Positions 30,751 through 46,428 of a stretch of 46,428 bases of DNA are shown here, in pieces. The notes below the pieces were generated by a model, which ran no database searches, was not told where the DNA came from, and was given only the letters and a program-made list of their open reading frames with translations. The first letter of the stretch is position 1, and every line of letters begins with the position of its first letter. This DNA is from a virus. The position numbers were made by a program, and so were the translations under genes. The DNA lies in IMG/VR virus record IMGVR_UViG_3300022920_000012, positions 1 to 46,428 of that record, one strand, 5' to 3'.

Positions 30751-32664
30751 TTATTTGTAACCTATTTTCTTGAGAATGTCGTGGGCTTCGTTTACGTACC
30801 AATCGTAATCCATATCTACGGGAAATTCTTCTGGTAAATCCATTAACGGGACAGCACCATCTGAGCGAGGAACTTTATTACCATTGGTATTGTAACGTAT
30901 CATATCTAATTCGTGGCATCCGTAATACCACCTAATAGCCTTGCCGATAATCTGACCTTCGTATACTGCTCCGCCATTTACAGTTCTCAAAGTTAGAAAT
31001 TTAGTTACGTCTTTACACGCCATTATAGTTTCTATAGGTAGTGTTCCGTCTTTCAAAAACGCCTTAACAGCTTCCGTACAAATATCATTTGTAGGATTAC
31101 TTCTCAAACTATAAAAATGTTCTCGTTGATCCGAATACGCTCCTTTGCCTTTGAACTTACCCTTAGTAGTTACTGCTATGTAGTTATTTACATCTCTACT
31201 ATTTAAGCTGGAATACTCATTAGCTTCCATGTCGTAATTGGTTTCAAATTCCCAATCTTCTACTATCTCATTAGCAGTATCTTCTTTTTCTGGAGGTATC
31301 TTAACTACTATACCATCAGTGTTGGCACTGACTACTGATATACCTGCTAACTCTAATCTCTCTATCAACATCAATAATGATAACTGACCTGTAACAGTAA
31401 CTTGCATCATCAGGTCTGGGGAATACATAAATGACCACTTGCTGCCGAACTTACCGAAAGAACCATTAATAGTAATTTTCAGACTTTCATTTACAATGCC
31501 GTAATCTTCTTTTTCAGCTTGGCTGTTTTTATCATTCTTAGCTTCGGCTTTAGCTTCTAATCTTCTATTCACAATAGATTCATAAATGTCTAAGAATGGT
31601 TCTCCAATGTGTTTAGGGTATAAACGATTATTTAGAATTATACGAGGATAGAATGTGGCAACATCCCATTCCCTTAATATATGACGTTCATTAGTGTGAC
31701 GAATAGATTTCTCACAACTATGTATACCGCCAGTTCCTACCGTGTACTTGGTGGAACCGATTGTGAATTGCAACTTACTTTTCTTATCTGGAAATTCACC
31801 TTTGCGCTTTCCTGATTTAAATCTATCAGTATCGTTCATTTCAAAATTGAACTCTACGTGACCGCTTTTACCTACCGTAAAAGGTAATGAAGTATATTGT
31901 CTTTTGACATCTTTTAGTAATTCCGTTTGAAAAACTATATTATCAGGACATTGAAAGTAATACTGAGTGCCCGTATCCACTTTTGTTCTTTTAGGTGTTA
32001 TGCCGTACTTGTTCTCCATTTCGCATTTTATAACTGACTCAGCTATTTGAGCATCAGACTTAGATCTCAAATCCACTCCGTACTCATCGCTCATAGATTG
32101 ACGTAGTTTTAATTCCTGCTCCATGTGCATTAACAGTAGAGCGGTTACTTCGTTATCATTGCCGCAATATTTACGCATATCTACTAACTGGTGCTCTTCA
32201 ATGGTCGCACTAGGTTCTATTGGCAAGTCTTGCATTTTGGGAGAATGAATACGACCACCGTATATTTTCAATGTGGCTTGTAAGGGAGCGACTTCCATGA
32301 TGTCTATTTGATCTACTTTTAACGCGGCTATACCGAATTGTTTTCTTACTTGCCAAGGTTGCAATCCTTTTATCCCAGCTTTCTTATCCTCATCACTGGG
32401 AATAATAGAATCGTTTATCTTCTTTATAGAGGCGTTAGAAAATCCTGCGGTAGCTGCTTCCAAGATACACATATCATACTTAAGACCGTTATAAGTTATT
32501 AAAGTATATTTAGATAGGATATGTAATATGTTTTTGATATTCAGTTCTGATTCGTTGAACTTTTCAAAATAAATAATATCACCGCCTACTACCTTACGAA
32601 ACATAACCAACAAGTAATTATGATAACACTCTATATCTAAAGTGACTACTTTACTATAATCCAT
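30751..32664 (-). CDS. DNA polymerase, family B
   Basis: 637 residues: replicative polymerase with proofreading. Exonuclease motifs: Exo I LDIECYHN (Asp10, Glu12), Exo II YNGLKYD (Asn59, Asp64), Exo III YCGNDNEVT (Tyr166, Asp170). Polymerase motifs: A DVATFYPRIIL, B KITINGSFGKFGSK, C SANTDGIVV. Motif C reads NTDG where many family B enzymes read DTDS; this variant is common in phage relatives. It overlaps the dCTP deaminase by one base and belongs to the minus-strand replication operon. Confidence 0.92.
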   Translation of the reverse strand: MDYSKVVTLDIECYHNYLLVMFRKVVGGDIIYFEKFNESELNIKNILHILSKYTLITYNGLKYDMCILEAATAGFSNASIKKINDSIIPSDEDKKAGIKGLQPWQVRKQFGIAALKVDQIDIMEVAPLQATLKIYGGRIHSPKMQDLPIEPSATIEEHQLVDMRKYCGNDNEVTALLLMHMEQELKLRQSMSDEYGVDLRSKSDAQIAESVIKCEMENKYGITPKRTKVDTGTQYYFQCPDNIVFQTELLKDVKRQYTSLPFTVGKSGHVEFNFEMNDTDRFKSGKRKGEFPDKKSKLQFTIGSTKYTVGTGGIHSCEKSIRHTNERHILREWDVATFYPRIILNNRLYPKHIGEPFLDIYESIVNRRLEAKAEAKNDKNSQAEKEDYGIVNESLKITINGSFGKFGSKWSFMYSPDLMMQVTVTGQLSLLMLIERLELAGISVVSANTDGIVVKIPPEKEDTANEIVEDWEFETNYDMEANEYSSLNSRDVNNYIAVTTKGKFKGKGAYSDQREHFYSLRSNPTNDICTEAVKAFLKDGTLPIETIMACKDVTKFLTLRTVNGGAVYEGQIIGKAIRWYYGCHELDMIRYNTNGNKVPRSDGAVPLMDLPEEFPVDMDYDWYVNEAHDILKKIGYK

Positions 32665-33209
32665 TATCTCAATCCTTTACTAGGAGTAGTGGAAGTCTGC
32701 CCGTTATACTGACCCTTACTTGCGTAAGAATGTTCTTCTGGTACGGGATCGCATTCAAAGAATACCATTTGACCTATTTTCATTCCTGGTTCCAACACTA
32801 ACGTATGGAATTGAGTAACATTCTTAAGCTCCAATGTTAATGTTGAATCGTTCCAGCCTGGATCGCACCACCCAGCCAACATATGCTGAAGTCCATTACG
32901 AGCTAACGAGCTCTTCAATTTGTATTCGCAAGCTATATTATTGGGTAGGTTAAAAGTTTCATTGGAAGAAGCTAATAAGAATTGATTAGGATGTAGATGA
33001 AAACAAGAACCCTTATCCATAACAAACTCGTGCATCTTTATATTATGTTTATCTTTCAAACTTACGTGTTTTCTAGCTGGAGTAACTTCTTCTAACATTA
33101 CCGTGTTAGATAATGTTATATCTATAGAAGCACCGTTTACATTTTCTAACGGTACGTTTATCACGCCTGACTCTATCAACTCTATCAATTTATTATATGA
33201 TAATAACAT
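32664..33209 (-). CDS. dCTP deaminase-like enzyme
   Basis: 181 residues. Family signatures: KLKSSLARNGLQ (Ser100, Ser101, Arg104), AGWCDPGWNDSTLTLELKN with the catalytic Glu127, and GQMVFFECDPVPE. It converts dCTP to dUTP, feeding the dUMP pool used by the TS-family enzyme two genes upstream. In phages with modified thymine, this supply of dUMP is a common partner; bifunctional dUTPase activity cannot be excluded. Confidence 0.88.
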   Translation of the reverse strand: MLLSYNKLIELIESGVINVPLENVNGASIDITLSNTVMLEEVTPARKHVSLKDKHNIKMHEFVMDKGSCFHLHPNQFLLASSNETFNLPNNIACEYKLKSSLARNGLQHMLAGWCDPGWNDSTLTLELKNVTQFHTLVLEPGMKIGQMVFFECDPVPEEHSYASKGQYNGQTSTTPSKGLR

Positions 33210-33216
33210 AATCGCC

Positions 33217-33624
33217 TCACAGATCAGGATTTACATAGGTACGACTAGGAGCGCATTCTATGTCTGATATCAGCTCACCCAATGAATGTTGAGCACCTGA
33301 TAGATTGTTTTGAAGTATTTCAATGACTATCTGTTTTTCATCATTTCCTATACTATTTATAAATTCCATATACGCTTTGTTCATAATCATCAACTTGCTA
33401 TGTATCTCGAATTTATAATGGTAAGCACATTGTTCTTCAGCTTTAGCAATGTAATGGACTGCTTTGCGCAAATCTTCAATTCCGTTTTTCTTCTTCCATC
33501 TAATGACATATTTGGTAGCACAACCTAATAAATAATTAAGTTGATTCAACATAGCAAAATCCCAATGTTGAAGTTCTGTGTCTGAGTAATGCGTACCACC
33601 TATCTGATAATTGTTAGCTTCCAT
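33217..33624 (-). CDS. DUF3310 protein
   Basis: 135 residues, with the DUF3310 signature HYSDTELQHWDFAMLNQLNYLLGCATKYVIRWKKKNGIEDLRKAVHYIAKAEE at 12-64 (helical, conserved W/Y/K). DUF3310 proteins occur in phage nucleotide-metabolism blocks; the function is unknown, though a nucleotide-binding role has been suggested. The C-terminal half is less conserved. Confidence 0.85.
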   Translation of the reverse strand: MEANNYQIGGTHYSDTELQHWDFAMLNQLNYLLGCATKYVIRWKKKNGIEDLRKAVHYIAKAEEQCAYHYKFEIHSKLMIMNKAYMEFINSIGNDEKQIVIEILQNNLSGAQHSLGELISDIECAPSRTYVNPDL

Positions 33625-34111
33625 TTCGCAATTCCTCCATTTCTTGGATTAATGATTGGTAGAGGTATGTACTACTCATATTTAAATTACCGCATATAAA
33701 TTTTCTCCATGCGTTAAAAGGTGTTAGTGCATTTTTCTCTCCACACTTATATCTTTGCAAACAATACCACATGCCCTCTAATGAGTCAGCTAGTTTCAAT
33801 GTCGCTTTTTCTTCATAAGAGAGATCAAAATTAATATCGTTTTCTTTTTCCCATTGTACTTCCAGTTTGCGTAAAATAACACTTAATTCTGGGTGATCTT
33901 TCTTGACTGGAAAAGGGCTATCTCCAGTGTAAGATTCAGCCGCATCGTGAGTTAAAGCGGCTAATAGTAAATCTTTAGAACAATCAGGGTTAAGGTGTTG
34001 AACTATTAGTGCGACTCCCCATTGATGTTCTGAGTTCTGTTGTTTGGTGACTCCTACTTGCTGATGGAATCTAACCACTCCACCGCTATTTAGTATGTTT
34101 TTAATATTCAT
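33614..34111 (-). CDS. HD-domain nucleotidase (YfbR-like)
   Basis: 165 residues. Metal ligands of the HD family are visible: SEHQWGVAL (His29), LTHDAAES (His55-Asp56), and LADSLEGMWY (Asp). The YfbR type removes phosphate from deoxynucleoside monophosphates. In phages with modified thymine, degrading dTMP or unwanted dNMP would keep the unmodified base out of DNA; that purpose is inferred. Confidence 0.78.
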   Translation of the reverse strand: MNIKNILNSGGVVRFHQQVGVTKQQNSEHQWGVALIVQHLNPDCSKDLLLAALTHDAAESYTGDSPFPVKKDHPELSVILRKLEVQWEKENDINFDLSYEEKATLKLADSLEGMWYCLQRYKCGEKNALTPFNAWRKFICGNLNMSSTYLYQSLIQEMEELRNGS

Positions 34112-35118
34112 AATGATTTCACTCGGTTAAGTAACCAGTCTCGGCAAGCAAAATGCCAATCGTCAGCTACAATATGGGTCAAATAGTTAATAGCATGATT
34201 TGCTCCGCTAGATTTATGTACTAAATAACAACATAGTACAGGCAAAATAAGATCATTGAAATAACGGGACTTCCAACAATCCATTTCGCCTAACTCTTTT
34301 AATCCAAACTCGTCATATACATTGAAGAATTGTTTCAAGTCATGTTCGAAATCATCCATATCTTCTTCAATCATATAAACCGCATTACTTACATTGTCGT
34401 AAGGGGATTCGTGTAATTCGAAGTTGTTTATTAATCTGTCCCAAACTTCACCTCCTGGACCTTCAGTATATACGTGGAATGAGTTACTAACTTGTGTGTA
34501 AGTACCTAATGGTAATCCTAAATGAGCCGCTACGTATTCTTGTATCATACTAAACTGAACTACGTTGGCTCCATAAGCCCCCCATACCATATCGTTGGAT
34601 CTATTATTAACAGTCATGCACAAGTATCCAGATCTAATGCGGAATACGATTTGCATATTACAGGCTTTATCTTTAGTCTGCCTATGTAGATCTTCTTCAT
34701 CCCATATTTGGCATACAGCTTGGCGACTATTGGGATCGTTTTTGAGAGTACGTATTACGGTGGCTAGTTGATCGTTGTCGTAACCTATACCATTACGTAA
34801 TCGGTATCCGTATGGAGCATTGAACACCTTACCATCGTCGCTGTATTCACTCATACGTTTGTTAAATTCACTTAAGAACTTTACATCTTTGCGACCAGCT
34901 AAAATCCATAAAGATTCCATAAGATGGAAGAAAGGATTAGCATCCCTCACCCTACTAATTAGTACTCTCTCCCACGGTTTACGGTAGACTGTAGCTACTG
35001 GCATGGGTATTTCTAGAGTTTGCCCTGCTCGGCTATTTAAGGGTTCTCCGTGTTCACACATAATAGCGATACCTTGAGTTAAAGCATCATTCACGTTATT
35101 CGCATTAATCACTAACAT
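34108..35118 (-). CDS. Thymidylate synthase family enzyme (dTMP synthase or dUMP hydroxymethylase)
   Basis: 336 residues. Catalytic Cys153 is in KDKACNMQ; the phosphate-binding Arg is in NDPNSRQ (Arg132); the RSxD motif is at 173-176; and an Asn at 185 in GAYGANVVQFS matches the residue that selects uracil over cytosine, so dUMP is the likely substrate. HVY at 215-217 is also conserved. It converts dUMP to dTMP or 5-hydroxymethyl-dUMP. The next gene (5-hmdU-DNA-kinase-like) favours the hydroxymethylase reading. AGAGG precedes the start. Confidence 0.82.
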   Translation of the reverse strand: MLVINANNVNDALTQGIAIMCEHGEPLNSRAGQTLEIPMPVATVYRKPWERVLISRVRDANPFFHLMESLWILAGRKDVKFLSEFNKRMSEYSDDGKVFNAPYGYRLRNGIGYDNDQLATVIRTLKNDPNSRQAVCQIWDEEDLHRQTKDKACNMQIVFRIRSGYLCMTVNNRSNDMVWGAYGANVVQFSMIQEYVAAHLGLPLGTYTQVSNSFHVYTEGPGGEVWDRLINNFELHESPYDNVSNAVYMIEEDMDDFEHDLKQFFNVYDEFGLKELGEMDCWKSRYFNDLILPVLCCYLVHKSSGANHAINYLTHIVADDWHFACRDWLLNRVKSL

Positions 35119-35119
35119 A

Positions 35120-35986
35120 TTAACCTCTTCCGTTGTATTTTTGACGTAAGAAACTTTTGTCTGTTCCTACTCGTTGATATTTATCGAACTCACAAAGAGA
35201 ATGTTCTATATCTCTCATTTCCAAAACTGGAAAACCGTTATCGAGATACAAGTCACTGTCTATGAGTAATTGTTGCATTTCTGTGTTAGTTTGGCAAGAG
35301 TTTATTTTACTGTTTAGCGGTCTATTATATAGACGATTCAAACCTCTAACGGCTCCAGGTCCTGCATTAGCCCATGTGTAAATGTCGGTAGCTTCTCTCA
35401 GATATTTAGTGTGTCTCATATCGGTCACTATCTCATAAGCTAAGAAATTACTATATCCAACATGACCGTTAGCAAAAAGATAAAACGCACTTTCTATACT
35501 GTTTATATATTTTAGAGTGTTTGTTATTGCTTCTCGTTTAGCCCATAAAGGCTCTAATATATTCCAGCAAGTATCTTCGTTCTTGGGAACTTTACGACCA
35601 CCAGTGGTAATCATATAAGCTCCGTTGTATATACGCTTATCTGAATCTTTACGATTGTTCAATATAGAATGCGCTTTTTCTGCATCCCAATTAACCATTA
35701 GATCGTCCAACTCTACCATAGTATCTATTAGGTTTATTCTCCTAGCTAAACATAAAGCAAACCACAAATAAGGATGATCTTCCCATCTATCTCTTATATT
35801 TTCTTTAATCCAGATAGTAGTAGTATCTAGTTCACGGAAAACATTGCAAAATTTGTAATCCTGCATGATAGTATCTTGTGTCCAAGGTTTGGATTCACCT
35901 GTTAATTTACGTAGATAAATTTTGTGTCTCTCTTCTATCCACCAATAAAAAGAATCCAACAAATCATCATTAATATTAGAAGTCAT
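35120..35986 (-). CDS. 5-hmdU DNA kinase-like / aGPT-PPlase2 family protein
   Basis: 288 residues. The family's helical domain motifs are clear: KPWTQDTI (33-40), FCNVFRELD (46-54), GPGAVRGLNRL (209-219) and MRDIEHSLCEFDKYQR (257-272). Members act on 5-hydroxymethyluracil in phage DNA, first defined computationally as alpha-glutamyl/putrescinyl-thymine pyrophosphorylase clade 2, later shown for some to phosphorylate hmdU in DNA. ATG 35986 is chosen because GGAA lies 7 nt upstream; ATG 36013 lacks a ribosome site. It overlaps the glycosyltransferase gene by 11 nt, so the two are coupled. Confidence 0.82.
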   Translation of the reverse strand: MTSNINDDLLDSFYWWIEERHKIYLRKLTGESKPWTQDTIMQDYKFCNVFRELDTTTIWIKENIRDRWEDHPYLWFALCLARRINLIDTMVELDDLMVNWDAEKAHSILNNRKDSDKRIYNGAYMITTGGRKVPKNEDTCWNILEPLWAKREAITNTLKYINSIESAFYLFANGHVGYSNFLAYEIVTDMRHTKYLREATDIYTWANAGPGAVRGLNRLYNRPLNSKINSCQTNTEMQQLLIDSDLYLDNGFPVLEMRDIEHSLCEFDKYQRVGTDKSFLRQKYNGRG

Positions 35987-37223
35987 CGAAGTGTTCCATT
36001 TTACGAGCCGCATCTACTATTAATTTTTCAGATGGAATACCTACTGAACCGCCATTACTTTCACTAAATTCTATAATAGCTTTGGCTACATTAACTTTGT
36101 CGAACGCTTCCATCAATTTTAAATTGTTTTCTTGAATATCACTTAGCAACTCTTCATCAGCCATAGCTTCGTCTACTATTTTAGCATATTCCTGAGGACT
36201 ACTATTATAAGGTATTTCTATATAATTTATACCTGATTTGAAAAAGAAACTATTCTTCATGGCTAAATCGGTGCAAACAGGAACACAACCTTGAGCCATT
36301 GCCTCTACCATAACTCTATTAAAGTGGCAACCTAATTTAGAATAATTCAAAGACCAGCTAGGGTCTATTAATAGTTTCACATCGGCTAATAATTCATCTC
36401 TCTTACTGGTGGTTACATAGCCTAAATATTCCATTCCGCTAGACAAGGCGTTTTCCCATATGCGGGAACCGTCTTCCTCCAAATAACACGGTTTGACTTT
36501 TTCTTTGGAAGTCATATAATGATATTCTATACCGCCACCACAGATATATTTATCCGAAAAATCATCCATATAAGGTATAGCTCGTATTAGATCGTCAACG
36601 CGCTTCCATCTTTTAAATGTCTGCAAAGAAACAAAAGCATCATCACGATTAGATATGCTTTTTATGTAGTCTTTCTGTTCATGAGGATTAGGTATGAAGG
36701 CTCTACGAATAGGTAATTCTTCACAAGAATGAAAAGCTGCATCATGAACACATACAACACCGTCTATCTTATCGCATATATTCAATATGTGCGGATACAG
36801 TTTTTTCATATTGCCGTCATGTACTACAGCCAACTGATTAGCAAAGGGCTGATTGAATATTTTAATCCACTGGTCATCCCCTTTAGTCGCTTTGGAACAA
36901 GTAGGTACGGATATATGATGGAGTATTAGGTCAAATTCAGAACTCCACTCTTCCCAGCTCAATCTATCGTTGTGATAATTGAGTTGGTACATCCCATCCC
37001 ATCCATTTTTCTGGTGCATCCATAATCCTAACCCTTCACCGAATTCCCATCCTTGCTGGTCACTGCGATCTTTTGTTTTGGGTGTACCTGTTACGCCTTT
37101 GTTCTTTAACATAACGCTCTGTACGGTGTGACCTAATGCTTTTAAACCGCGAGCCATAAACTCACTATAGTTTACTATACCGCCCCAATCCTGTATTTGA
37201 AAATGAGTTATTAATATATTCAT
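35976..37223 (-). CDS. Glycosyltransferase, GT4-like (GT-B fold)
   Basis: 415 residues. N-terminal Rossmann start MNILITHFQIQDWGGIVNYSEFMARGL (first NTP-sugar domain) and the C-terminal donor-site motif MVEAMAQGCVPVCTD of GT4 enzymes. A retaining transferase using a nucleotide sugar is expected. Its overlap with the hmdU-kinase-like gene suggests the acceptor is a modified base in phage DNA rather than LPS or protein. GAGGAAGGATT before the ATG is a strong ribosome site. Confidence 0.82.
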   Translation of the reverse strand: MNILITHFQIQDWGGIVNYSEFMARGLKALGHTVQSVMLKNKGVTGTPKTKDRSDQQGWEFGEGLGLWMHQKNGWDGMYQLNYHNDRLSWEEWSSEFDLILHHISVPTCSKATKGDDQWIKIFNQPFANQLAVVHDGNMKKLYPHILNICDKIDGVVCVHDAAFHSCEELPIRRAFIPNPHEQKDYIKSISNRDDAFVSLQTFKRWKRVDDLIRAIPYMDDFSDKYICGGGIEYHYMTSKEKVKPCYLEEDGSRIWENALSSGMEYLGYVTTSKRDELLADVKLLIDPSWSLNYSKLGCHFNRVMVEAMAQGCVPVCTDLAMKNSFFFKSGINYIEIPYNSSPQEYAKIVDEAMADEELLSDIQENNLKLMEAFDKVNVAKAIIEFSESNGGSVGIPSEKLIVDAARKMEHFDDF

Positions 37224-42441: not shown

Positions 42442-42678
42442 ATGCTTATATTCACTAAAGAAACACTAGACAAAGAACACAAGGCTAAACTCAGCCTATT
42501 AATAAAGGAAGCAGGTAACTACAGTTTTCTAGCCAAAATGCTGGGGATATCACCTAGTACGGCTCAGGGCTGGGTTACTCGTGGGCGTATAAGTAAAGAA
42601 GGAGCCAAGTTAGTAGAAGATCACCCCATACTAGGAGAAAAATTTAAAGCTATAGAATTGCGCCCTGATTTAAAATAA
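42442..42678 (+). CDS. Cro-like HTH regulator, 78 aa
   Basis: The middle region YSFLAKMLGISPSTAQGWVTRGRIS is a helix-turn-helix of the YdaS/Cro type, with GIS as the turn. It is the first plus-strand gene after the divergent promoters and probably binds the repeats at 42353-42386 to balance the two arms. AAGGAAG precedes the ATG. There is no CI-type repressor, so it is more likely a Cro-like early regulator than a lysogeny switch. Confidence 0.8.
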   Translation: MLIFTKETLDKEHKAKLSLLIKEAGNYSFLAKMLGISPSTAQGWVTRGRISKEGAKLVEDHPILGEKFKAIELRPDLK

Positions 42679-42692
42679 TAGGATACACTCTT

Positions 42693-45281
42693 ATGTCATA
42701 CGACAAGAATCAACTGAGTGTGTATCTAGAACGCAATGCCGATCTAATACCTATACACACTTGGAACAAACAAATAAAAGGTAAGGTACGAGGGAAAACT
42801 CCTCTGCATTCAGACTGGACTACCAAACAGTATCCATCTGGTAAACATAATAGTTGGATAGAATCTGGATTCAACTTAGGCTACCGCATACCAGCTAATG
42901 AATTAATAGTGGATATGGATCCACGTAATTATAAAGGTGAAGAATGTGAAGAACTTATTGCAGAGCTTTTTGGATTCTTCGATTGGGAAGAACTCACAGA
43001 AACTCTTCCTACGGTCAAGACGGGTGGCGGCGGCTATCATATATACTGTTTGCTCCCTGAAGAAATTGATTATCGTTACTTACGAGAAACATTAGAGGAA
43101 TATCCTGGTGTCGAATTCAAAAGAAAAGGTAGACAAGTCCTGTGTGCAGGTTCAAAACATCCCTCGGGAGAATATTACAAGTGGTTGCACAAAGCAGAAC
43201 CACGTACTGTACCCCAAAGTGTGCTTGAGAAAATTGAAAGACCAAGAGTCGAGAGGTCAGCGGACTACGTTAGCGGAGCTGGAGCGTTGTCCGGCTTGCA
43301 ACTGCAAGAACTCATATTAGATAAATTAGACCCTGCTGATTATAGTGACAACGATTCTTGGTTCCCGTTATTATGCGCAGCACACCACGCCACTGACGGT
43401 AACGGTTGTGATGAATTCGTGGAATGGTCAATACAAGACACTAAGTACGATGATGAAGAATCTACTATCCGTGCTCGCTGGGAATCTTTATGGGAAAAGG
43501 ACGTAGCAGTAACAATAGGTACTCTAATAAGAGAATTAGAAAGGCAAGGTGAAGACGCAGCTAATCTTAAAGCTGTATTGGCATTCTCCAATCAACCTAA
43601 TCTTGACGATACAGACGAAGAAGATAGCGAAGAAGCTCAGTTACTACAAGAAGGTAAAGACGCAGCTTCCGAAATAGACATCGACGATATGTATCACACT
43701 CCAACGGGTGAAGGTGGTGTAGAAGGTTCGGCTATACAAGCCGCCAACGAATTACATCCAACCAGTAATCAAGAAGAAGTGATGAAGTGTTTACGCTTAA
43801 TAAAAGCGGCTAGTAGTTTTGAGTCGGCTAAAGCACAAGAGATACTACTAAGTAAAAAACTACTAAAGCAGTCTAGTATTAATAAGCTATTAAAAGAATT
43901 GGATGCTAGGATAGTAGATGATCTCGCTTTGTTATTAGCACAGAAAACTCTAGAGAAAACCTTTAACAGCGGTAAGCATCTAACGTGCCCTCCTAATGGG
44001 ATACTCTGGGCTTTCCATAACACTCACTGGAAGAAGATGTCTGACGAGTTCTTAGCCAAACTTATACAAAATGTATTGGTGCAGCTAAAGCAGAAAATGA
44101 AAGTAGAAGTACAGGAACTTTCGTTAATACAACAAGCGGTAAAACTTAGCCGTATTCAAGTGGCTACGTTGACTGATCGTATTCACCGTACGGAACTCCC
44201 TCCCTCAGTTGTCAACTGTAATAACGGGGAACTATGGTTAGGTAAAGACGGTACTCACACTCTCAAACCGCACAACTATCGTAGTTACCTACTTAACTGC
44301 CTAAACGTGGATTACGATCCTTCAGCGGAATGTCCTCTATTCATGGAGACCCTAAAAGGTATATTCGGTAATTTCCCCGACACCGACGATATGATCCGTC
44401 ACATGGGCGAGCTAATGGGTTACACAATCCAACCGTACAAGAATATAGCCAGCTGGTGGTTGTTCCGTGGTCCTGGTGGTGACGGCAAATCTACTATACT
44501 AAAAATATTAGGCGGTATATTACAGGACGCTCAAGTGATGTCCACGGTTAAGTTATTGTCTAGTGGGAGTTCCAACGGCGATAACCACGCCACCACATCT
44601 TTGGTCGGTGCGCTTAATGTAGTGATTGAAGAACTACCTGCTAACCATTTGTTGAAGGACGAGGGGGTTAAGTTATTCAGTGAGAACACTAAAATGGAAT
44701 GTAATTATAAAGGTAAAGATCGCTTTCCATTCATGTATGCTGGCAACTTGATTATGTGTAGTAACGGATTCCCAGCTACTAGGGACTTGAGCCACGGTAT
44801 GACTCGTCGTGCTAATGTTATTCCTTTTAATGCTAAGTTCGACGCCAACGGTACAGCGGATATAGACCGAGCGTATGATATCCTCTCTAGTAAAGAAGAG
44901 ATGTCTGGAGTGTTAAACTTTATGTTGGAAGGTCTTCAGCGTTTACGTAACCGAGGCTATTTCCAAGCACCAGAATCTTGTAAAGCAGCTAAAGAAGAGT
45001 GGATGGGTGAAGCTAATAATGTAGTGCGGTTTGTTAATGACACGGTTATTAAAACTACCAACGCGGAAGACTGTCTTGGAGATGTTTCCAGCTTTTATGG
45101 GATTATCTACAATACATGGTGTGAGAATAATGGTATAGATGAGCGTGTTCGTAAAGGTAAAGGTCACTTCATTAAAGACTTAAATCATCTAGGACTGACT
45201 GTTAAAGTAGGTGGTCGTAATGTTCTTAAAGTCTATGGGGGTACACTGGTTGATCTTGAATCCAATGATGAAGATTGGTAA
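42693..45281 (+). CDS. Primase-polymerase / helicase fusion (P4-type)
   Basis: 862 residues. N-terminal AEP (Prim-Pol) domain: GYRIPANELIVDMDPR with Asp74 and Asp76, TGGGGYHIYCLLPEE, and GRQVLCAGSKHPSGEYYKW. The middle holds a Glu/Asp linker. The C-terminal D5/SF3 helicase has Walker A GPGGDGKST (about 593-601) and Walker B ALNVVIEELP (about 640-649). It primes and unwinds DNA at the origin; no separate replicative helicase or loader is visible, so this fusion probably does both. The candidate origin follows directly. Confidence 0.88.
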   Translation: MSYDKNQLSVYLERNADLIPIHTWNKQIKGKVRGKTPLHSDWTTKQYPSGKHNSWIESGFNLGYRIPANELIVDMDPRNYKGEECEELIAELFGFFDWEELTETLPTVKTGGGGYHIYCLLPEEIDYRYLRETLEEYPGVEFKRKGRQVLCAGSKHPSGEYYKWLHKAEPRTVPQSVLEKIERPRVERSADYVSGAGALSGLQLQELILDKLDPADYSDNDSWFPLLCAAHHATDGNGCDEFVEWSIQDTKYDDEESTIRARWESLWEKDVAVTIGTLIRELERQGEDAANLKAVLAFSNQPNLDDTDEEDSEEAQLLQEGKDAASEIDIDDMYHTPTGEGGVEGSAIQAANELHPTSNQEEVMKCLRLIKAASSFESAKAQEILLSKKLLKQSSINKLLKELDARIVDDLALLLAQKTLEKTFNSGKHLTCPPNGILWAFHNTHWKKMSDEFLAKLIQNVLVQLKQKMKVEVQELSLIQQAVKLSRIQVATLTDRIHRTELPPSVVNCNNGELWLGKDGTHTLKPHNYRSYLLNCLNVDYDPSAECPLFMETLKGIFGNFPDTDDMIRHMGELMGYTIQPYKNIASWWLFRGPGGDGKSTILKILGGILQDAQVMSTVKLLSSGSSNGDNHATTSLVGALNVVIEELPANHLLKDEGVKLFSENTKMECNYKGKDRFPFMYAGNLIMCSNGFPATRDLSHGMTRRANVIPFNAKFDANGTADIDRAYDILSSKEEMSGVLNFMLEGLQRLRNRGYFQAPESCKAAKEEWMGEANNVVRFVNDTVIKTTNAEDCLGDVSSFYGIIYNTWCENNGIDERVRKGKGHFIKDLNHLGLTVKVGGRNVLKVYGGTLVDLESNDEDW

Positions 45282-45287
45282 ATAGGT

Positions 45288-45307
45288 AGGGTTAGAAGGG
45301 TTAGTTT
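45288..45307 (+). repeat. Iteron copy 1
   Basis: AGGGTTAGAAGGGTTAGTTT: two GGGTTAG units separated by AA. Starts 7 bp after the primase stop. Matches copy 2 exactly. Confidence 0.9.
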
Positions 45308-45332
45308 ACAAGGGATGTTTTGTGGCGTGTTA

Positions 45333-45362
45333 GGGTAAGGGTTAGAAGGGTTAGTTTTTGGG
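45333..45362 (+). other. Potential G-quadruplex
   Basis: Four GGG runs with loops TAA, TTAGAA and TTAGTTTTT (3, 6 and 9 nt). Loops are within the usual limit for a DNA G-quadruplex, the last being longest. Confidence 0.5.
45338..45357 (+). repeat. Iteron copy 2
   Basis: Identical to copy 1 over 20 bp; start-to-start spacing is 50 bp. Preceded by GGGTAA, which adds another G-run. Confidence 0.9.
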
Positions 45363-45401
45363 TGGTGGTTTGGTGCGTCGATCCTCTTAAAATTGGTGAT
45401 C

Positions 45402-45419
45402 AGGGTTAGAAGGGTTAGT
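45402..45419 (+). repeat. Iteron copy 3
   Basis: Identical to copies 1 and 2 over the first 18 bp; start-to-start spacing from copy 2 is 64 bp. Confidence 0.88.
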
Positions 45420-45449
45420 AATTTTAATACCCTATAACGTATAGCAAAA

Positions 45450-45467
45450 TTAATTTTTAAAAATTAA
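45450..45467. repeat. 18-bp perfect AT palindrome
   Basis: TTAATTTTTAAAAATTAA reads the same on both strands and contains no G or C. Suits a DNA-unwinding element beside the iterons. Confidence 0.85.
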
Positions 45468-45495
45468 ATTCTAATAGGCTTATGTATGGTCCGAT

Positions 45496-45515
45496 AAACT
45501 AACCCTACTAACCCT
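45496..45515 (-). repeat. Inverted iteron copy
   Basis: AAACTAACCCTACTAACCCT is the reverse complement of the iteron with one mismatch (19/20). It flanks the AT-rich part on the far side from the direct copies. Confidence 0.85.
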
Positions 45516-45577
45516 TGGTAATTTGGAACAAAGAACTCTCAAAGTTTTGGGAACTCATAATTAAAAGGTAAACAAGT

Positions 45578-46111
45578 ATGAAACTCAATCACGTAATGAT
45601 AGATTTAGAAACAATGGGGTTAACTCCTGATTCAGCTATTGTCTCGGTAGGAGCAGTAGTGTTTGATCCAAGAGCTAATAAGGTAAGTAAGAAGACTTTC
45701 TATCGGGAGTTAGATTGGACAGGTCAAGAAAGACCAATAGACTCTGGAACTCGGGACTGGTGGTATAGTGCTAAGGTAACAGATCAAGCTAGGGAAGCGT
45801 TAGATGGATTAGACGACTTAGAAACAGTTCTAGGGGAATTAGCCAACTGGCTACCTAAAGATGCTAAAGTGTGGGGTAACGGAGCGACCTTTGATATTTC
45901 TATGTTGGAAGATGCTTATCGTCAATGCGATATAGAAATACCTTGGAAGTTCTGGAACATACGCGACGTGAGAACTATTAAGGATATGTACGAATCACAA
46001 AGGGGAGGCTTTAGTAAAAAGTCTGGCGGTGTTGCACATAATGCTTTAGATGATGCTCTACATCAGGCACAATATACTTGTATGATGTGGAATAAGATAA
46101 TAGGAGATTGA
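45578..46111 (+). CDS. 3'-5' exonuclease, DnaQ/RNase T-like (complete)
   Basis: 177 residues. DEDDh residues: HVMIDLETMGL (Asp9, Glu11), WGNGATFDIS (Asp) and AHNALDDALHQ (His, Asp). The length fits a single-domain exonuclease of the Rv2179c-like type. AAGG precedes the ATG. It trims 3' ends of DNA or RNA; in phages such enzymes help replication or degrade host nucleic acid, but the substrate is not known. First gene after the candidate origin. Confidence 0.9.
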   Translation: MKLNHVMIDLETMGLTPDSAIVSVGAVVFDPRANKVSKKTFYRELDWTGQERPIDSGTRDWWYSAKVTDQAREALDGLDDLETVLGELANWLPKDAKVWGNGATFDISMLEDAYRQCDIEIPWKFWNIRDVRTIKDMYESQRGGFSKKSGGVAHNALDDALHQAQYTCMMWNKIIGD

Positions 46112-46112
46112 G

Positions 46113-46328
46113 ATGAATAATGAAGATAACATTACAGTGACAACTCAGTTAACTGCTAAACGGTTAAAATTTAACAAGTTAGTAGCTTACTCATTTATAA
46201 CGATAGGATTAGTCTTATTAGTATTGGGAGAAACAGAACACTCTAAGGTATGGGGTAGTTTATTTAGCTTGTATGGCTTTGCCCATCTAACAGTAACTCG
46301 TATTAGAATATGGTGGAATCACAAATGA
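46113..46328 (+). CDS. Small membrane protein, 71 aa (second allele)
   Basis: Diverged copy of the gene at 907-1122 with the same two hydrophobic segments and the same RIRIWWNHK end; several substitutions in the N-terminal half (for example TVV against ITV). Here it starts 1 nt after the exonuclease stop with no cupin gene between, so it shows the ancestral or cupin-less arrangement. Confidence 0.75.
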   Translation: MNNEDNITVTTQLTAKRLKFNKLVAYSFITIGLVLLVLGETEHSKVWGSLFSLYGFAHLTVTRIRIWWNHK

Positions 46329-46428
46329 ATTCAGAAGATAACGTGTCTAAGATGAGAATAACTGAGTCTTCAGGAGGATTAGATCCTAAAGAGACTTACC
46401 GATGTGAATTAGAAGGTGGCATGATCTA
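46325..46428 (+). CDS. Hypothetical protein (3' end cut by window edge)
   Basis: Start of the same gene as 1119-1352, apparently identical over its 104 bases, overlapping the previous stop as ATGA. It ends at the window border after 34 codons. Confidence 0.7.
   Translation, partial: MNSEDNVSKMRITESSGGLDPKETYRCELEGGMI

Follow-up and report, generated by a model that had tools for sequence, protein, structure and literature searches.

A noncoding stretch (45282-45577) directly behind the primase-helicase gene of this virus is, with a probability that we put at roughly 0.87, a replication origin of the P4, pRN1 and SaPI kind, bound by the primase-helicase itself. We favour this reading because the place and layout of the site are conserved, because the same layout is present in pRN1 and in the crr site of P4, because the C-terminal domain of the primase-helicase has a predicted fold like that of the P4 origin-binding domain, and because the repeated words vary together with the wing of this domain in related proteins.

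The noncoding gap and its iteron array

The window, i.e. the whole stretch of DNA that was analysed, is a record of 46,428 bases. Its first ~720 bases resemble its last ~720 (1-721 versus 45708-46428), with differences, and the genome, at about 45.7 kb, is therefore probably complete. It looks as if a circularly complete contig had been assembled from two variants. As a tail sheath, a portal and a major head protein are encoded, the virus is probably a myovirus. A separate observation concerns the minus-strand region 33217-37223, where genes for a 5-hmdU DNA kinase-like protein (35120-36013), a thymidylate synthase-like protein (34108-35118) and a glycosyltransferase (35976-37223) are grouped with a dCTP deaminase gene (32664-33209). 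Since these four kinds of genes are present, the phage probably carries hypermodified thymidine.

Table 1. Features at and around the candidate origin, in window coordinates
Feature	Position	Strand	Basis
Small ORF, 78 aa, 5' of the primase-helicase	42442..42678	+	weak HTH/YdaS matches below cut-off
Primase-helicase, 862 aa, proposed initiator	42693..45281	+	Pfam domains, PHROG DNA primase families
C-terminal winged helix, aa 773-862, proposed iteron-binding domain	45009..45278	+	predicted fold
Noncoding region, proposed replication origin	45282..45577	+	no ORF of annotated size
Iteron pair 1, two 9-bp units	45288..45305	+	
Iteron pair 2, two 9-bp units	45338..45355	+	
Iteron pair 3, two 9-bp units (best facing array, left arm)	45402..45419	+	
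AT-rich spacer, 78% AT, proposed unwinding element	45420..45497		
Exact 18-bp AT palindrome TTAATTTTTAAAAATTAA, within the spacer	45450..45467		
Inverted pair of iterons (AGGGTTAGT AGGGTTAGT; facing array, right arm), one mismatch to AGGGTTAGAAGGGTTAGT	45498..45515	-	

The gap of 296 bp begins immediately 3' of the primase-helicase stop and is followed by an exonuclease gene (177 aa, 45578-46111). Three direct copies and one inverted copy of a repeat, an AT palindrome and an AT-rich tract had been described here in the initial annotation, and the coordinates bear this out (Table 1). The three direct pairs are exact plus-strand copies of AGGGTTAGAAGGGTTAGT. The repeat is better described as a 9-bp unit occurring in pairs, AGGGTTAGA AGGGTTAGT, and the functional unit is the 9-bp word, with tandem pairs facing each other. 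Its likeness to telomere repeats, which had been part of the same description, is a coincidence, because the step is 9 bp instead of 6 and no tandem of TTAGGG is present (TTAGGGTTAGGG occurs on neither strand).

Eight of the 12 GGGTTAG copies in the window fall within the gap and the remaining ones are isolated single copies; a count of 12 was matched in 0 of 100 shuffles. When the window was scanned for facing tandem repeats (period 7-12, z>=1.7), the array in the gap was the sole match. The spacer between its arms spans 78 bp and is far richer in AT than the window (61% AT). One palindrome search lists the palindrome of the spacer in an imperfect 24-nt form. No terminator above chance was found in 45282-45577. 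The GC skew switches at ~42 kb along with gene direction, and not in the gap; as it tracks gene direction, it is uninformative on the origin.

The primase-helicase and its close relatives

Prim-Pol (PF09250), PriCT_2, D5_N and DUF5906 (SF3-type helicase) domains were found by Pfam in the primase-helicase, D5_N and DUF5906 scoring above cut-off, and its Walker A motif, GPGGDGKST, is invariant among relatives. The C-terminal 90 residues were modelled by AlphaFold2 as a winged helix with a mean pLDDT of 83.4. This shorter domain was folded because a longer C-terminal model was of low confidence and gave only weak structural matches. The closest structural matches obtained with VIA-align were RFX DBDs (Z 9.5 and 8.4), followed by the P4 origin-binding domain 1ka8 (Z 8.1, rmsd 2.4, 77 residues) and the winged helix of the ASFV PrimPol (Z 7.9), on a background where unrelated rows reached Z <=5.8. 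A profile of the C-terminal sequence gave no meaningful match among PDB chains. The C-terminal domain is thus predicted to be a winged helix resembling the P4 origin-binding domain, a fold match which by itself is no demonstration of function.

An ORF comparable to the small one 5' of the primase-helicase gene is present in L116, L117, AchV4 and the Bradleyvirinae. Two relatives encode the winged helix of the primase-helicase a second time, as a stand-alone copy directly after the array (L120:8885-9244 and L116:7905-8189), and this copy could compete for the iterons and restrict replication.

A DNA-level search of annotated phages gave no match, and relatives were therefore sought by protein search. 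A scan of genome contigs with query A2 found no relative. In IMG/VR, relatives of the primase-helicase were found in L001 (98% identity), L002 (67%), L116 (64%), L117 and L120 (both 61%) and L122 (54%). All four iteron pairs are kept in L001. GGGTTAGAAAAGTTA occurs twice directly and once inverted in L002, L116 carries an inverted GGGTTACTTATGTTATC, and L122 has a perfect 18-bp inverted repeat whose arms lack the second GTTA. The five GTTA-N5-GTTA units at the site in L120 are all that were found in its 15-kb locus; counted in the same way, the gap holds 4 of 11 matches in the window, 4 of 7 in L121 and 2 of 2 in L119.

In L001, L002, L116, L120 and L122 the site lies directly 3' of the primase-helicase stop and has an AT-rich centre. 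Position, layout and the 9-bp step stay across these relatives at 98-54% identity, while the words drift. The initial annotation had suggested a search of related phages for the same repeat unit; the site is indeed retained in these five, with words that change, and the facing array is absent behind the primase-helicase gene of L117. Four 17-bp iterons, TCAGTGAAGAATTTTGG, are found in that locus close to the contig end (L117:9889-9969), and these are possibly an origin of its own. We also observed a repeated TATAAGAAAAA-like motif in the spacers of relatives (L002:7749, L120:8670, L122:8650), possibly a component of an unwinding or priming site.

Facing words in other loci and the wing that may read them

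Tandem GGCTTAGAT-like words are present 3' of the primase-helicase gene in the Bradleyvirinae (Mallos, DoCa5, PaMx28, DLP4, Donnerlittchen, A1432, phiH2 and relatives), followed by an AT tract and by AATCTA(A/G)ACC in inverted orientation. The tandem copies are more numerous than the inverted ones, and the upstream neighbours of the gene are the same.

A blind scan for facing tandem words (periods 7-12, z>=1.7) was carried out on 30 loci (313 kb). This gave 11 clusters, eight at period 9, two at period 8, one at period 7 and none at periods 10-12. Eight of the 11 were located within ~1 kb 3' of the primase-helicase, i.e. in the window, L118, BPP-1, Methanoculleus virus L4768, mycobacteriophage Milly, AchV4, PS6 and H103, where the window and L118 are close relatives of each other. 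Behind the primase genes of Methanoculleus virus L4768 (L143:4561) and Milly (L150:5018) the array lies inside an annotated CDS. At the threshold used, no array was found in Vibrio 1.055.O, K457, RcSimone-Hastad, RDJL Phi 2, Sf11, Axy06 and Rowa, nor near the primase-helicase gene of Tedan, where the sole match was 3 kb off. With eight sampled phages giving no array, either the rule has exceptions or looser forms escape the scan.

The primases of BPP-1, PS6, Milly and Methanoculleus were then used for fetching further loci; those in which the end of the gene was usable numbered 105 (787 kb). Clusters at periods 9, 8 and 10 numbered 63, 11 and 2 in the first 1 kb behind the gene, against 4, 0 and 0 elsewhere, and no clusters at periods 11 and 12 were found downstream of the gene. 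A facing array of period 8 or 9 was present at most 1 kb downstream in 74 of the 105 loci, a frequency that is biased because the set was drawn from relatives of positives and contains many near-duplicates. As a control, 108 virus loci picked only by an unrelated 16-mer were scanned (935 kb); clusters at periods 9, 8 and 10 numbered 4, 0 and 1, and three of the four at period 9 were one repeated sequence. More than 30 distinct words occur among the arrays of the 105 loci. We regard this change of words under a constant layout as the informative part of the comparison. Full proteins were available for 59 loci, and the spacer of all but one of these measured 60-69 bp, with 64 bp as the commonest length; the spacer AT content was 0.69 versus 0.45 for the loci overall.

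Co-variation of words and protein was evaluated on 59 array-bearing proteins, in relatives of BPP-1, a group other than the window's own. The partial correlation between word distance and C-terminal distance, with the rest of the protein removed, was 0.464; the reverse, words versus the rest given the C-terminus, was -0.266. In pairs of close proteins with unlike words, BPP-1 residues 831-850 differed most. The sharpest case is given by proteins with AGTGACGTT words (n=9) and AGTGGCGTT words (n=3). These words are one base apart, and the two sets of proteins have five fixed differences in 870 residues, all at the consecutive positions 838-842 (QLIRS versus TSAKG), immediately after the recognition helix, in the wing. 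The 12 proteins make up about two lineages, and this is therefore one strong natural contrast and not twelve. The iterons appear to be read by the tail of the primase-helicase itself.

Alternative functions, mechanism and known systems

The pairs might instead be operators, through which the primase-helicase, the small HTH protein encoded upstream or another regulator controls the exonuclease and the genes following it, with replication starting elsewhere. This would suit the position of the array between two genes, the weak HTH matches of the upstream ORF, and the stand-alone winged helix encoded after the array in two relatives, a potential regulator. We consider it unlikely, as the search for promoter signals in 45282-45577 gave no excess over chance, the 2+2 facing geometry with its AT-rich spacer of ~64 bp persists across loci with differing downstream genes, the words track the C-terminus of the primase-helicase, and the counterpart in pRN1 was shown experimentally to be an origin.

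Somewhat less likely still is an extruded stem-loop formed by the inverted repeats, as was proposed for pRN1, in place of protein-binding words. The arms are complementary, and in pRN1 the integrity of the stem is required (PMC4234260), but the window has three pairs on the left and one on the right, tandem copies exceed inverted ones in the Bradleyvirinae, and the words co-vary with the winged helix. A strict tandem step of 9 bp is unneeded for a stem and fits protein binding.

We give little credence to a packaging (pac) site recognised by the small terminase subunit. The noncoding stretch with the array adjoins the small terminase gene in the Bradleyvirinae and the terminase genes are close by in BPP-1; against this, the next gene in the window encodes an exonuclease and the annotated stretch shows no terminase nearby, the plasmid pRN1 lacks a terminase, and the words co-vary with the wing of the helicase.

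Hardly any weight can be given to a telomere-like G-quadruplex of the G-rich strand as the functional signal itself: the four GGG runs at 45333-45362, pointed out initially as a potential quadruplex, match a loose pattern only (one 9-nt loop), the strict pattern (four G-runs, G3N1-7 with loops of 1-7) has no match in the window, L118 or L121, the loose match is absent from L121 and from the 98% relative, where the loss of the fourth G-run leaves the quadruplex unsupported, and the words of other families, e.g. GACGTTTGA, have no G-runs. From the initial reading, the iteron origin recognised by the primase-helicase finds good support in comparative evidence, whereas the telomere part is given up and the quadruplex, as a conserved element, is refuted.

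Under the preferred reading as an origin, subunits of the primase-helicase would use their C-terminal winged helix for binding the 9-bp words, with two neighbouring subunits on each tandem pair. The left pairs and the inverted right pair would face each other across the spacer, and from this arrangement we propose that two helicase rings assemble in opposite orientation. After melting the spacer, the opposed rings would load; priming would fall to the PrimPol domain and extension to the phage DNA polymerase (30751-32664). Iteron binding, double-hexamer assembly, melting, priming and bidirectional replication are what we infer for the window phage.

On balance we lean towards one rule for PrimPol/SF3 origins of phages, archaeal viruses and pRN-type plasmids. 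Shortly after the initiator gene, a tandem pair of words of 8-10 bp, mostly 9 bp, would be set against an inverted pair, with ~64 bp of AT-rich spacer between them. These words would be read by the C-terminal wing, with about five residues setting the specificity, and in related phages word and wing would change together, giving separate replication compatibility groups. Iteron origins read by their own helicase are already known and the window site adds one more case. The general facing rule and the wing 'code' seem unreported; in the open-licence literature searched for the 9-bp facing rule or a BPP-1 origin, only the pRN1 and SCCmec papers were found.

Most phage origins are unmapped. If the rule is true, the origin, the word and the reading residues would be predictable from sequence for many phages and plasmids of the PrimPol/SF3 type; this would extend to the binding motifs still missing for pRN1. 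Groups of near-identical proteins, where the word changes by one base and the wing by five residues, form a natural experiment on the switching of initiator specificity, and this may account for the coexistence of such prophages in one cell.

The initial annotation had found iteron origins of tandem GGGTTAG units unfamiliar in phages of this group. Iteron origins as such are no novelty among phages: in P4 and, according to published description, in the SaPIs they are read by the helicase, and in SaPIs and at P4 crr they are located directly behind its gene. The window combines an SF3 helicase, a predicted C-terminal winged helix, and short iterons with an AT-rich stretch, as expected of a self-loading initiator of the P4/D5 type; it lacks the TOPRIM domain and the second iteron site of a strict P4 replicon. 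P4 alpha similarly has an SF3-type helicase fused to a primase, and a C-terminal winged helix (1ka8) of the same predicted fold. The crr site is directly 3' of the alpha gene, and its annotated type-I iterons have 9-bp spacing with inverted ones facing. In contrast, the P4 primase is of the TOPRIM type (PMC4234260) and that of the window Prim-Pol PF09250 with PriCT_2, P4 needs two separate sites (ori and crr) where the window scan shows one array, and the iteron words are unlike.

For SaPI Rep and SCCmec Cch2, the origin lies directly downstream of the gene and its iterons are recognised by the C-terminal domain (PMC7581432). By this description they resemble the window protein as self-loading helicases recognising downstream iterons via a C-terminal domain, and they differ from it in that the primase is mostly separate and the Cch2 site consists of three short AAGTG iterons. 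BPP-1 (Rauchvirus) has the same domain order as the window protein and perfect facing pairs, (GCCTCGTTT)2, 64 bp and inverted (GCCTCGTTT)2, but here the array is ~470 bp behind the gene and beyond another ORF; a published stem-loop proposal for BPP-1 concerns another spot, adjoining the gene (PMC4234260).

A further parallel is offered by pRN1. ORF904 unites PrimPol, an SF3 helicase and a winged helix, as the window protein does, and the small regulator gene upstream (orf56) is paralleled in position by the 78-aa ORF. The pRN1 origin was mapped to an inverted repeat of ~100 bp directly behind the PrimPol/SF3/winged-helix gene, described by the authors as a stem-loop with binding motifs not yet identified (PMC4234260). 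When the whole plasmid was scanned, the top period-9 match was located in this experimentally required origin, with the array TTATGTCCA TAGTGTCCA, a 64-bp spacer and a perfect inverted copy. Inverted arms of the pRN1 type (~20 bp, with a loop of ~60 bp) are found behind the gene in the window as 18-bp arms with a 78-bp spacer; by the same scan, the arms in pRN1 are 18 bp. The difference is one pair per arm in pRN1 versus three left and one right in the window. Two helicases assembling in opposite orientation were suggested for pRN1 (PMC4234260), and the layout in the window fits such an assembly.
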